Of a stretch of 64,000 bases of DNA, positions 175 through 12,325 are shown in pieces. Each line of letters starts with the position of its first letter. The first letter of the stretch is position 1. The position numbers and the translations under genes were made by a program. Source of the DNA: Sulfitobacter sp. 20_GPM-1509m (lineage in GTDB: Bacteria > Pseudomonadota > Alphaproteobacteria > Rhodobacterales > Rhodobacteraceae); NCBI RefSeq assembly GCF_000620505.1, contig NZ_JIBC01000005.1, positions 1-64,000 on the forward strand, written 5' to 3'. The notes below the pieces were generated by a model. The model was not told where the DNA came from and did no database searches. It saw only the letters and a list, made by a program, of their open reading frames with translations.

Positions 175-231
175 CCAGATGGTGTTAGGAGATCGTTTAG
201 AGAGATACGATTTGTAGAGGTTTTACTAGGT

Positions 232-346
232 TTGGCAATGACCTACTCTCCCACGTCTTAAGACGCAGTACCATCGGCGCTACAGCACTTAACTGCCAGG
301 TTCGGGATGGGGCTGGGTGTTTTGCTTGCGCTATGATCACCAAACC
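232..346 (-). rRNA. rrf: 5S ribosomal RNA
   Basis: About 115 nt on the minus strand match conserved bacterial 5S, including the GTAGCGCCGATGG block and the 3' TGGGAGAGTAGG block. It lies between 23S rRNA and tRNA-fMet. End positions are good to a few bases. Confidence 0.95.
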
Positions 347-530: not shown

Positions 531-556
531 GTGAAGTCTTTCTTCTACTGGATCAA

Positions 557-563
<7 letters not shown>
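531..563 (-). other. pre-23S processing stem, 3' arm
   Basis: Positions 550-563 are the perfect reverse complement of 3377-3390 (14 bp). Pairing continues imperfectly for about 15 more bases through an AAGTCTTTCT block. The two arms bracket 23S rRNA and would form the RNase III processing stem of the precursor. The partner arm is at 3377-3410. Confidence 0.75.
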
Positions 564-3376
<2,813 letters not shown>

Positions 3377-3384
<8 letters not shown>

Positions 3385-4311: not shown

Positions 4312-5780
<1,469 letters not shown>

Positions 5781-6195
5781 GAAAAGCAATTGCTTGCTTA
5801 TCCTTGACGTCGAACCTCTGCACATCGACCTGCATCACTTACTGAATGATACAGGCGTCTTTTCTGTTTGTTGTGCTTGCAGTTACCAAAGTAACCAGAA
5901 GCCGTACAAACAGTGAAGCTGACACTCTATAATCGGTAGCGAGATAAATCCCATTCCCTAAGAGCGCGATATACAGACGTTGATCCATCGAATGAACCAA
6001 ACCGCCCACATATCTCTTCAGATATTATCAATTTCAAAGAGCGTAGAGACAAAAACAAACCGTGATGCGCCCTAACTTCTTGGCGCGCCCCGCCTGCTCT
6101 ATCTCTGTTTTTACTTCCGCCTCGTTGCCACCGCGTCTCCGCTCCGGCCCGTCTGGCGCCCCGTTGGTGCATCACTGCGCCGCCGGTGAAGGGGG
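5781..6195 (-). other. rRNA operon leader (no gene)
   Basis: This is the transcribed leader between the proposed rrn promoter and 16S. It includes a boxA-like antitermination element at 6031-6043 and several GC-rich hairpins (for example GGCGCC repeats near 6157). Short ORFs here have no coding character. Confidence 0.75.
6031..6043 (-). promoter_or_regulatory. boxA-like antitermination element of rrn leader
   Basis: The minus strand reads CGCTCTTTGAAAT, close to the bacterial rrn boxA core (TGCTCTTTAACA) and to the form usual in alphaproteobacteria. It lies about 250 nt before 16S, where NusB/NusE would load to prevent Rho termination. Confidence 0.65.
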
Positions 6196-6265
6196 TTCTA
6201 AGTCTAACGCCCAAAACCCGCAACCCCTTTTTTCAGCAATATGACAGTTTTCTGAAAAAAACCGA
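6196..6265 (-). promoter_or_regulatory. rrn promoter with AT-rich upstream element
   Basis: On the minus strand a -35 TTGCGG (6218-6223) and a -10 TTAGAA (6196-6201) are separated by 16 bp. They are followed by a C-rich initially transcribed region and preceded by an AT-rich tract with T and A runs (about 6226-6265) that could serve as an UP element. This is an inference from position and motif; no other promoter of comparable quality was seen in the leader. Confidence 0.5.
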
Positions 6266-6382
6266 ATTTCCCAAGAAAATCATGCCCTTGGGTTCGCAAT
6301 ATTTCGCGGAGGCCGGGTCAGATCGGTCGATTATTACCCGATCCCGCCCATCATGTTAGCGCGAGACAACACTTCAGGCGAC

Positions 6383-6662
6383 TTATCCACAGACTCGCAC
6401 CAGCAATAGCGCCGACTCGTCGCCTGGGAATCGCAATTTCGGGGTGCCGAGCGCGGTTTCTGCAGCAGATTCTTTGAAATTTCTTTGCCCGCCCCCGCGA
6501 TTCACGCGAGTCGCGGGCAGCGATTCCACCGTTTCACCGCTTTTTTCGCGGAACTTCGGCGATTCCCGTCTTTGATAAGCGCTGTGAAACGCAGCTCAGG
6601 GGCGATTCAGCTGCCTCTTCGATGAGCAAACCGAGAACAAATCGCCCGATTCCGCATGAATC
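6383..6662. promoter_or_regulatory. dense GANTC (CcrM site) array with one DnaA box
   Basis: Eleven GANTC sites occur in 271 bases, at 6392, 6414, 6428, 6468, 6499, 6508, 6522, 6561, 6604, 6648 and 6658. About one would be expected by chance at this base composition. Four are in the same-orientation context GCGATTC (6498, 6521, 6560, 6603). A perfect DnaA box TTATCCACA (6383-6391) abuts the first site. The array fills the gene-free stretch between the 3' end of msrQ and the rrn promoter. GANTC is the target of the cell-cycle methylase CcrM in alphaproteobacteria; the role of this array is unknown. Confidence 0.6.
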
Positions 6663-6686: not shown

Positions 6687-7292
6687 TCACGCAGCTGCCC
6701 GTTTGGGCCAGCGCAGGCGCAAAGCCAGCAGCCCCACGATGATTGCCATATAGACCAGCGGTTCAATCTGGATGCCTTTGACCAGCCATATGTAATGCAC
6801 CCCACCCAGCACTGCGGCCGCATAGACCAGCTTGTGCAGCTTGCGCCACGCAGGCCCCATTTTGCGGATCGACCAGTTGTTCGAAGTCACGGCGAGCGGA
6901 ATCAGCAGCACGAAGGCGGCAAAGCCGATGGTCACATAGGGACGTTTGACGATGTCCGCCCAGATCTGGCTCCAGATCTGCACATCAAGGAACAGCCAGA
7001 CGGCAAAGTGCAGACAGACATAAGCGAAAGCCATCAGCCCCACGGCACGGCGAAAGCGGATCAGGTTCACGCCTGCGAACCGCCGCAGCGGCGTGATCGC
7101 CAGCCCTGCGATAATCAGCTTCAGCGCCCATTGCCCCAGCTCGTGCTCCAGCGCCTTGACCGGATCGCGGCCCAGACCGCCAAAAAACGCCTGATAGACC
7201 AGAAACAGCGCCGGCAGCAGCAACACTATATATACGACCCATGTGGGGACACTGCGCGCTGCACTGTTGATACGATTCACAAAGGCTGTCAT
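6687..7292 (-). CDS. msrQ: MsrQ, heme-binding membrane subunit of periplasmic Met-sulfoxide reductase
   Basis: The protein is about 201 aa with six hydrophobic segments and the ferric-reductase-like fold of MsrQ/YedZ, including histidines in transmembrane helices (VCLHFAVW, WRKLHKLVY, GGVHYIW) expected to bind b-type heme. MsrQ passes quinol or flavin electrons to the periplasmic molybdoenzyme MsrP, which repairs oxidised methionines. I chose the ATG at 7292 (MTAFVNR). An upstream in-frame start at 7349 would abut the divergent gene and leave no promoter. In most relatives msrQ directly follows msrP; here a DUF2306 gene on the other strand lies between them. Confidence 0.9.
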   Translation of the reverse strand: MTAFVNRINSAARSVPTWVVYIVLLLPALFLVYQAFFGGLGRDPVKALEHELGQWALKLIIAGLAITPLRRFAGVNLIRFRRAVGLMAFAYVCLHFAVWLFLDVQIWSQIWADIVKRPYVTIGFAAFVLLIPLAVTSNNWSIRKMGPAWRKLHKLVYAAAVLGGVHYIWLVKGIQIEPLVYMAIIVGLLALRLRWPKRAAA

Positions 7293-7350
7293 CACAAACT
7301 TAACTCTTTCCCTGCGGGGCTTGACGCGCCGCGATACTGATAGGTGCATT

Positions 7351-10280: not shown

Positions 10281-10570
10281 GTCGTATTCTCGCTGTTTCC
10301 AAGGTTTAACGCACAGTTAAGCCACATACACGCCAACGCAAGGGCGCGCCGGTGTCACACTGTGGCGCGGATTCGTCGGGCCAAGCGCCGAACCCGCAAC
10401 AGAAGCACCTCGCGGAGCGCCATTGGTGCTTGGTTGGTCAACAATGTACCAAGTCCGCCCGCCAAAACCACGGGAATACCCCAGACAAAACTCTGTTTAC
10501 ACATACCTTTAGAGGGCGGGCATGATAACGTTGTGGCAACAAGAACATCGACAAGACAATGGGGACACAC

Positions 10571-12325
10571 ATGCCGACCACGTACACAGAGACCGTTGAA
10601 CTCGACACCGACAGCTTTGCTGAAAGTTTCAACAATGACATGCCCATCGACATCGCCCTTTTCGACAACATCAATGGCAGCCTTGGCCTGCAACGGGCGG
10701 CGCAGACCGACACGTCGGATGCGATTGCGCTGAACCTGACCGCGGGGTTCACCTATACTTTCGTTGTCGTGGTCGACACCGCCAATGCCGACAGCGCATT
10801 CGCCGTCGGATTTGGCGATCAGACGGAAACGGCTGCGGGTCTTGATGGCACCTATGAGGTCACGATAACCTTTACCGCAGAGGCGACCGAAACCGCCTAT
10901 TTCACTGTCTCGCAAACCGGTGGCACCGCGGATTACTCTATTTCGCTAGAAGACATCGTCGACCCCAGCATTCCGACCGAAGGCGACGACTATATCGTCG
11001 GCAACATGACCTCCGACCGCGTCAATCTGCTGGGCGGCAATGACACCTACATCGCGCTTGGCGGTTCGGATCAGGTCTGGGGAGGGTTGGGCGACGACTA
11101 TATCAACGGCGTCTGCGGCAACGACAAACTGTGGGGCGAAGACGGCAACGATACAATCGAGGGCGGCAATGGCCGCGACAGCATGTGGGGCGGCATCGGC
11201 AACGACAGCATGAACGGCCAGAACCAGGATGACATGCTGTGGGGCAACGAAGGCAACGACACGCTGATCGGTGAAAAAGGCAACGACACAATCGACGGCG
11301 GTTCAGGCGATGACGACATCGACGGCGGCAAGGAAAACGATCTGCTGACCGGCGGCACCGGCGCTGACATCTTCCGCTATGCCAGCGACATGGGTTGCGA
11401 CACGATCACCGACTTTACCAGCGGGGAAGACCGGCTGGATGTGTCAAAGCTGGACATCTGGGACATCAGCCAATTGACCATCACCCAGGTGGGCGACAAT
11501 GCCCGCATCAACTTTGGTGATTTTCAATATGTCGAGCTGACCGGCGTCAACGCAGACGACCTGACCAACGCCGACTTTATCCTGGATCAAGCCCCTGAAA
11601 TGGTCTCCTCCGAGGGAGGCGACAACCTGTGGGGCACCGAGGCTGCCGATACCATTGACCTGATGGGCGGCAGCGACCGAATTCGCGCCGGCGCAGGTGA
11701 TGACACCGTCATGGGCGGCACAGGCAAGGACACCATTGAGGGCGGTGATGACAATGATCTGATCCAGGGTGGCTCGGGGGCCGACCGGCTTTATGGAGAT
11801 GCAGGCAACGACGTGATCTACGGCGATGCGGGCAACGACCTGATCCTTGCCGGCACCGGCGACGACTATGTCAACGGCGGCAACAAGAATGACCGCATCT
11901 ACGGCGCGGGCGGCAATGACACACTGGACGGCGAAAACGGCAACGACAATATCTGGGGCGGCGCGGGCAACGACCTGATTTCAGGCGGTGCCGGCAAGGA
12001 CCAGATCGACGGCGGCGACGGCGATGACACGATTGACGGCGGATGGGGTGACGACAATCTGACCGGCGGCACAGGCGCTGACATCTTTGTCTTCGACGAC
12101 CGGATGCGTGCCGACACCATCACCGACTTTACCGATGGCGAGGACCGGTTGGACATGACCGCCTGGGGCTTTACCGGCGTCGATGACATGACTTTCCAAC
12201 AGGTCGGTGACGACGTGTTCATCCAGTTCACCGACCGCGACAGCCTGCTGCTGCAGAACGTCGAAGTGGCCGATCTGGATGCCAGTGACTTTATTTTTGA
12301 CACCGAACCGGTGCCATTCACCTGA
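10571..12325 (+). CDS. secreted RTX calcium-binding protein with duplicated module
   Basis: The protein is about 584 aa and very acidic. Residues about 1-125 resemble a bacterial pre-peptidase C-terminal (PPC) beta domain. Then come two tandem modules, each a run of GGxGxDxxx nonapeptides ending in a GTGADIF...DTITDF...GEDRLD segment as in serralysin-type C-terminal domains (about 165-330 and 350-580). There is no Sec signal and no catalytic domain, so it is probably exported by a type I system, but no HlyB/HlyD/TolC genes are in the window. The ATG at 10571 is preceded by GGGGA; an in-frame ATG at 10559 is possible. Confidence 0.9.
   Translation: MPTTYTETVELDTDSFAESFNNDMPIDIALFDNINGSLGLQRAAQTDTSDAIALNLTAGFTYTFVVVVDTANADSAFAVGFGDQTETAAGLDGTYEVTITFTAEATETAYFTVSQTGGTADYSISLEDIVDPSIPTEGDDYIVGNMTSDRVNLLGGNDTYIALGGSDQVWGGLGDDYINGVCGNDKLWGEDGNDTIEGGNGRDSMWGGIGNDSMNGQNQDDMLWGNEGNDTLIGEKGNDTIDGGSGDDDIDGGKENDLLTGGTGADIFRYASDMGCDTITDFTSGEDRLDVSKLDIWDISQLTITQVGDNARINFGDFQYVELTGVNADDLTNADFILDQAPEMVSSEGGDNLWGTEAADTIDLMGGSDRIRAGAGDDTVMGGTGKDTIEGGDDNDLIQGGSGADRLYGDAGNDVIYGDAGNDLILAGTGDDYVNGGNKNDRIYGAGGNDTLDGENGNDNIWGGAGNDLISGGAGKDQIDGGDGDDTIDGGWGDDNLTGGTGADIFVFDDRMRADTITDFTDGEDRLDMTAWGFTGVDDMTFQQVGDDVFIQFTDRDSLLLQNVEVADLDASDFIFDTEPVPFT

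Follow-up and report, generated by a model that had tools for sequence, protein, structure and literature searches.

A conserved, helically phased array of CcrM target sites upstream of ribosomal RNA operons in Rhodobacteraceae

The DNA upstream of a ribosomal RNA (rrn) operon in the window that we analyzed (a whole stretch of 64,000 nucleotides) carries a dense array of GANTC, the target sequence of the methyltransferase CcrM. Such arrays are conserved across the family, are built of the exact CcrM target, recur at rrn paralogues whose more distant upstream sequences are unrelated, and keep a constant helical phase relative to the rrn promoter. Our findings suggest that this is probably a regulatory array lying upstream of the rrn promoter, made of CcrM sites and bound by a reader of the methyl mark, that would raise rRNA transcription.

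Results

A GANTC array lies between an msrQ-like gene and the rrn promoter

The order upstream of the 16S rRNA gene is promoter, spacer, DnaA box, GANTC array and msrQ-like gene, with the following window coordinates.

230-344, minus strand: 5S rRNA gene, after the 23S rRNA gene of the same operon
554-3384, minus strand: 23S rRNA gene, after the 16S rRNA gene of the same operon
4320-5781, minus strand: 16S rRNA gene of the downstream rrn operon
6195-6223, minus strand: predicted rrn promoter TTGCGG-N17-TAGAAC, with the first base of the -35 element at 6223
6224-6378, minus strand: spacer between the DnaA box and the -35 element, with short conserved blocks (GCGCTAAC-like, GGGTAATAATC-like and TTTTTTCAGAAAAC)
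6379-6392, minus strand: 14-bp block CTGTGGATAAGTCG, invariant across six same-genus sequences
6383-6391, minus strand: perfect match to the DnaA box, which reads TGTGGATAA on the rrn strand and starts 168 bp upstream of the -35 element
6392-6662, no strand assigned: array of 11 GANTC sites, 173-439 bp upstream of the rrn -35 element
6687-7349, minus strand: msrQ-like gene, upstream neighbour of the array, on the same strand as rrn

The array begins directly past the stop codon of the msrQ-like gene (6687) and lies between it and the predicted -35 element. The gene is termed msrQ-like after the preliminary description of the region. Across the six same-genus sequences, the array itself is far more variable than the block CTGTGGATAAGTCG. 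The spacer blocks recur in the genus, and GCGCTAAC resembles half of a palindromic operator. Elsewhere in the window, a plus-strand ORF of 588 amino acids (10559-12325) contains many GGxGxD-type repeats and looks by eye like an RTX-like calcium-binding protein.

All 11 GANTC sites claimed in the preliminary description are present, at 6392, 6414, 6428, 6468, 6499, 6508, 6522, 6561, 6604, 6648 and 6658, and its estimate that composition predicts about one in these 271 bp agrees with our hand calculation at 56% GC. The perfect DnaA box TTATCCACA at 6383-6391 abuts the first GANTC, as had been stated, and is the sole perfect one in the window. The whole window contains 59 GANTC per 64 kb (0.92/kb), and its runner-up 271-bp stretch holds 3. 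Twenty 20-kb stretches of the same genome (400 kb, about 8%) contain 0.79 GANTC/kb, with 4 in the densest 271 bp; equal clustering at unrelated loci, which the preliminary description had named as the finding that would speak against it, was absent from these 400 kb. Four GCGATTC copies in a single orientation were likewise found (6497, 6520, 6559 and 6602). The accompanying idea that they resemble iterons gained no support, given that similar 15-mers occur in 24 of 375 neighbouring family-array sites and that the flanks are weakly conserved; on these grounds we rejected an iteron or tandem repeat array, which would consist of direct repeats of one longer unit.

Twenty samples of a relative's genome (G004) contain a single further dense cluster, formed by a 7-bp tandem repeat beside an unrelated operon. 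This repeat (L069, G004:C1, positions 4772-4804) consists of five head-to-tail AAGATTC-type units of 7 bp, each with one GANTC, just upstream of a two-gene operon that by eye encodes a DUF1778-type antitoxin and a GNAT acetyltransferase toxin, and is possibly a methylatable promoter of variable length. In the window's own genome, four GANTC in 271 bp surround the start of ccrM, from about position 5740 of the stretch G000:C3:150001-170000 (L180), in which ccrM starts at 5834 on the minus strand.

The array is conserved in the family

Using the first bases of 16S as a search pattern, we obtained exact 16S-start matches in 48 of 150 family genomes and examined 50 loci; 7 with less than 1 kb of upstream sequence were dropped, leaving 43 rrn copies, including 4 from CcrM-lacking genomes. 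In these copies, the stretch 550-750 bp upstream of 16S has 19-21 GANTC/kb and the stretch at 750-850 bp has 7.0/kb, compared with 0.8-2.3/kb nearer to 16S and 1.5-2.0/kb farther out. The 15 remaining palindromic gapped pentamers have no comparable peak in the 43 copies. At 540-840 bp upstream of 16S (the zone), at least one site is present in 43 of 43 copies and at least three in 32, while 33 of the 43 have none at 1040-1340 bp. Later sets, which also required an exact 16S-start match, drew on 121 of 395 genomes and on 69 of 193 genomes (30 loci looked at). The rrn upstream regions of CcrM-encoding family genomes (105 loci, unpruned for relatedness, as are the 107 loci used below) contain 490 GANTC in the zone (15.6/kb) and 137 outside it (1.09/kb). 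At least three zone sites are found at 72 of these loci and fewer than three at 33, with none at 7. Strong cases have five to fourteen GANTC about 130-400 bp upstream of the -35 element, and density in the held-out loci described below reaches its maximum, 38.5/kb, at 200-250 bp from it. The other finding named in advance as counting against the proposal, lack of conservation upstream of rrn in relatives, is thus contradicted by the arrays found in the family.

A protein search with msrQ yielded 56 loci from named genomes, 33 of which were counted as Rhodobacterales or labelled near; 32 were scored, L037 having no msrQ stop in range. At least three GANTC lie within 450 bp after msrQ at 23 of the 32 scored Rhodobacterales-type loci and fewer at 9, a tally by position after msrQ, whether or not rrn could be seen to follow, as many contigs end there; two of the loci (L015 and L018) have a GC content below 0.15 after msrQ, probably from runs of N. 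At the other 23 msrQ loci, from Rhizobium, Acidobacteria, Chloroflexi and others, the count is 0-1 GANTC, except for three with 3-4. At 28 rrn loci from other families of the class, 1.5 kb of upstream sequence contains at most 4 sites per 250 bp and no array; one of these loci, with 21% GC, is probably partly N. According to PMC3973325, most of the alphaproteobacterial class has kept CcrM; on that account, CcrM alone seems not to imply the array.

Arrays recur at rrn paralogues with unrelated upstream sequences

In six multi-rrn genomes (14 copies), upstream identity detected by blastn runs from 16S out to 312-594 bp only, roughly to the promoter or slightly past it, the exception being one pair within a four-copy genome that shares 871 bp. 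Of the 14, 12 contain at least two zone sites. In a second set, with 25 copies from 11 genomes, the shared upstream sequence measures at most about 513 bp in seven genomes and 589-792 bp in the remaining ones (G353, G523, G546 and G551); zero or one zone site is found in 6 of the 25 copies. A second rrn copy of the window's own genome has an array of its own, without a DnaA box, whose sites lie 143, 161, 184, 195 and 255 bp from the -35 element. Since paralogues with unrelated upstream sequences carry arrays, the arrays arose or were kept separately at many copies.

Array sites are exact CcrM targets

At 107 loci, the region 100-400 bp upstream of the -35 element contains 569 GANTC, where first-order Markov simulations predict 136 (z=40). 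The runner-up among gapped pentamers reaches z=9, and words one mismatch away from GANTC (twelve in all) occur on average at 0.69 of their expected frequency, with a maximum of 1.04. All four bases occur at the N of array sites (T 222, A 138, G 132, C 77). A GANTC that is exact and free at N matches the specificity of CcrM and points to the methyl mark. The window's genome encodes a 366-aa CcrM with a RAMA match (G000:C3:154737-155834), and near full-length CcrM (E <1e-140) was found in 385 of 395 family genomes. For Paracoccus aminophilus, GANTC methylation and an essential CcrM have been described (PMC3925955).

A candidate for the reader of the array is GcrA (PF07750), which is present in the window's genome and in 42 of 42 genomes examined. 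GcrA is described as binding methylated GANTC more strongly than hemimethylated or unmethylated GANTC and as contacting RNA polymerase (PMC3667746, PMC7987155), and a GcrA-type extended motif is given as YGAKTCG/YGAKTCK (PMC7987155). YGAKTCG occurs at 73 of 302 array sites versus 57 of 619 background sites, with 44 expected from local composition (about 1.65-fold excess); site flanks lean to Y before GANTC and R after it. By a criterion quoted in PMC7987155, a GcrA site should be no more than about 40 bp from the transcription start. The array sites mostly lie farther out: those in the held-out loci occur at 0.4/kb within 100 bp upstream of the -35 element, and the window's array is 173-439 bp away from it. 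We treat GcrA as no more than a candidate because 44 of the motifs are expected by composition and described GcrA sites lie at the promoter.

Ten of the 395 genomes have no near full-length CcrM match (G018, G029, G057, G091, G097, G358, G365, G376, G532 and G547), and rrn upstream sequences were obtained for nine of them, none being found for G057. Eight of these genomes pooled have 4.2 GANTC/kb in the zone versus 4.6/kb outside, that is, no excess over a background that is higher in the CcrM-lacking rrn upstream regions examined. G018 and G097 have 3 zone sites each. The rrn upstream sequence of G091 has dense, unphased GANTC, 10 in the zone and 12 outside (22 in 1.5 kb). In a 16S tree, G547 is an early branch, G358 falls among the outgroups and G091 inside the family, the other six being too short to place. 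Taken as a natural experiment, the lack of a pooled zone excess in eight CcrM-lacking genomes lends weak support to a role of CcrM; the losses may not be independent, since most of the nine genomes could not be placed in the tree. An Rfam 16S search of the ten genomes found 16S in 1 despite pattern matches elsewhere, making its misses uninformative. G091 is an oddly built genome or assembly, in which the GcrA match falls in three pieces within a 919-aa frame (L104/L190, G091:C273; G091:C507).

Array sites are in helical register with the rrn promoter

We analyzed inter-site distances in 55 arrays, comprising 16 of the 56 msrQ loci, 38 family loci and the window. The distances peak at 12, 21-22, 32, 42-44, 53, 73-74 and about 95 bp, with a vector strength of 0.305 at 10.75 bp, against a null of 0.035 (SD 0.018) and a maximum of 0.097 in 500 random placements. 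Neither other pentamers in the arrays nor GANTC pairs elsewhere in two genomes show comparable periodicity; that of A/T runs is low (vector strength 0.09-0.15) and hard to judge, since overlapping runs were counted. Single arrays with at least five sites are phased at p<0.05 in 16 of 30 cases.

The sites are also phased to the promoter. Of 55 loci with an accepted promoter, a near-identical one (L123) was dropped, leaving 54 (39 msrQ-linked and 15 not), and L010 was later taken out, leaving 53. Distances from the -35 element form a ladder at about 131, 141, 151, 163, 174, 185, 195, 206, 217, 228, 238, 249 and 261 bp, with further rungs at 279, 290, 302 and 312 bp. The 39 msrQ-linked loci give R=0.43 at 10.75 bp, a value as high being reached in 0 of 2000 random-shift controls. 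For the 15 non-msrQ loci, R is 0.27 at 10.75 bp with nearly the same phase, and the V-test depends on the period (p=0.0005 at 11.0, 0.0014 at 10.75, 0.020 at 10.6 and 0.16 at 10.5). Thirty similarity-pruned loci give R=0.318 (p=0.0008) at 10.75 bp.

Before a held-out test, the period (10.65 bp), the phase (3.60) and the promoter matrix were fixed from the first set (53 loci, R=0.426). The held-out loci were further rrn copies, mostly from new genomes; of 77 fetched, 11 had less than 1 kb of upstream sequence and 12 lacked an accepted promoter, leaving 54. Their V at the preset phase is 0.397, which 0 of 20,000 shifted controls reached. Pruning by 100-bp blastn matches, both to the first set and among the held-out loci, leaves 37 loci, for which V is 0.298 (p=0.00005) and pairwise phasing is 0.315 versus a null of 0.054. 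Ten of the 11 array sites in the window are confined to positions 1.2-4.8 bp of the 10.65-bp turn, a span of 3.6 bp; the site at 6428 is the exception. Three of the four N forms of GANTC share a phase of 3.3-3.9, and the C form is weaker and about 2 bp off. The near-cognate words GANTT and AANTC are unenriched yet phased (R of 0.42 and 0.35, respectively), and several other words are weakly phased. For the sites to keep their register with the promoter over 130-400 bp, whatever is bound or bent there has to be oriented towards the polymerase or the promoter DNA.

A DnaA box accompanies a third of the loci

A perfect DnaA box is present at 33 of the 107 loci, 32 times in the orientation of rrn (TGTGGATAA) and once inverted. 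The 32 rrn-oriented boxes lie 136, 147, 155-158, 167-169 or 178-179 bp from the -35 element, at whole turns (R=0.89); part of this register will be shared descent, the 107 loci being unpruned. The length of the spacer between box and -35 element seems to change by whole turns, and DnaA may be a second input at some rrn copies. Since only 33 of the 107 loci have a perfect box, we regard it as an accessory part. A chromosomal origin was considered and rejected, as there is one perfect DnaA box here, not several, and arrays stand at several rrn copies per genome.

Discussion

The preliminary description had proposed that the array could tie rRNA transcription to the state of replication through hemimethylation. 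Conservation in the family, the arrays at paralogues, the exact specificity and the phasing to the promoter all speak for a connection with rRNA transcription and with CcrM; the coupling to replication we offer as a conditional extension. In the mechanism that we envisage, the sites lie mostly on one face of the helix in fixed register with the promoter, with a DnaA box in a fixed register of its own at the promoter-proximal end of roughly a third of the loci. CcrM would methylate the sites, a reader of methyl-GANTC, for which GcrA is the best candidate, would assemble along one face of the DNA, and looping or wrapping would bring it to the promoter, presumably increasing rRNA transcription rather than repressing it. 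Passage of a replication fork would leave all sites of one rrn copy hemimethylated together, and the output of that copy would be altered until CcrM restored the marks. Tentatively, then, the array could be a methylation-dependent, phased rRNA enhancer that is flipped by the fork at each copy and couples ribosome synthesis to replication, through GcrA or through an undescribed reader. If this is true, coupling copy by copy could serve, for example, gene-dosage compensation.

Several features would also suit a sequence-specific transcription factor that recognizes GANTC whether methylated or not, an ordinary rrn activator to which CcrM is irrelevant: phasing to the -35 element is expected of any upstream activator, the flanks have their Y and R preferences, and the near-cognate words GANTT and AANTC are phased. 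However, one-mismatch words are not notably enriched, all four bases are used at N, the resident methyltransferase has the same specificity, and eight of nine CcrM-lacking relatives pooled show no zone excess. Such a factor is less likely than an array built for CcrM, and we consider it unlikely overall. Alternatively, m6A or the sequence itself at whole-turn intervals might curve or soften the region, with no dedicated reader, so that upstream DNA or a nucleoid protein would come close to RNA polymerase. The 10.65-bp period and its fixed register fit this explanation, as do the phasing of some other zone words to the -35 element and the weak periodicity of A/T runs. Pure sequence curvature would, however, tolerate words like AANTT, which show no peak, so an explanation by DNA shape would have to invoke the methyl mark or a shape rule that is very exact; we judge it quite improbable.

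The DnaA box raises the question of whether the array is a replication element (an origin, a DnaA-titration site or a timing site) that stands beside rrn by chance, given that a perfect box abuts the array here and is found at 33 of 107 loci. This is very unlikely, because genomes carry arrays at several of their rrn copies, in varied contexts and in the register of the rrn promoter, and because two thirds of the loci have no perfect box; coarse GC skew along one relative's main contig (20 samples) is mixed, with no clear ori or ter. GANTC has also been reported to be rare in genes and commoner between genes in alphaproteobacteria (PMC3973325), and sites kept out of genes might simply be tolerated in a long intergenic stretch. 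To this we give hardly any credence: the density is about 4.2-fold over local composition (569 versus 136), and tolerance would not yield the phasing to the promoter that was replicated in the held-out loci.

The E. coli rrn P1 promoters have an upstream activating sequence with helically phased sites for the activator Fis, at several rrn copies. The array resembles this region in the helical phasing of its sites to the rrn promoter (R=0.43; held-out V=0.40) and in its occurrence at several copies, and differs in that its unit is a methyltransferase target, its sites are more numerous and they lie farther upstream. By analogy of phasing and position, it may work like a Fis-type upstream region. 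In enterobacteria, clusters of GATC are read by SeqA in the Dam system. These are likewise dense groups of replication-sensitive methylation sites, whereas the array involves a different methyltransferase, stands at rrn rather than at oriC, and is phase-locked to a promoter. Dryden and Kaplan reportedly described a cis-acting region upstream of the rrn operons of Rhodobacter sphaeroides that affects rrn expression. It belongs to the same family and is possibly the same element, although GANTC, methylation and phasing are not known to feature in that account.

Promoters described as controlled by CcrM and GcrA include Caulobacter ctrA P1, mipZ and ftsZ (PMC3667746, PMC8116508). As in the array, GANTC sites lie near the promoter in genomes that encode both proteins; these promoters are presented as having one or a few sites at protein genes, whereas the array has many phased sites far upstream of rRNA genes. 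The repABC/ori2 region of the Agrobacterium second chromosome has three groups of three GANTC (PMC11514494) and thus also carries grouped sites at a regulatory locus, but it is described as a replication module, and we found no phasing reported for it. The enrichment of GANTC near ori and ter cited for D. shibae (PMC6473078) is of a different scale from the array at rrn. In the open-access literature that we searched, we found no description of GANTC arrays at rrn and no direct link from the CcrM methylation cycle to rRNA transcription.

The helical register makes the array sharply testable, in that a half-turn insertion should break its function and a full turn restore it. A published perspective suggests that replication-dependent methylation is possibly no major regulator in Rhodobacterales, where ctrA promoters are described as GANTC-poor (PMC8116508). 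The array suggests that in this order the methylation cycle may act instead on the rRNA genes. rRNA synthesis sets the growth rate, and our findings suggest that ribosome production may be wired to the methylation cycle.
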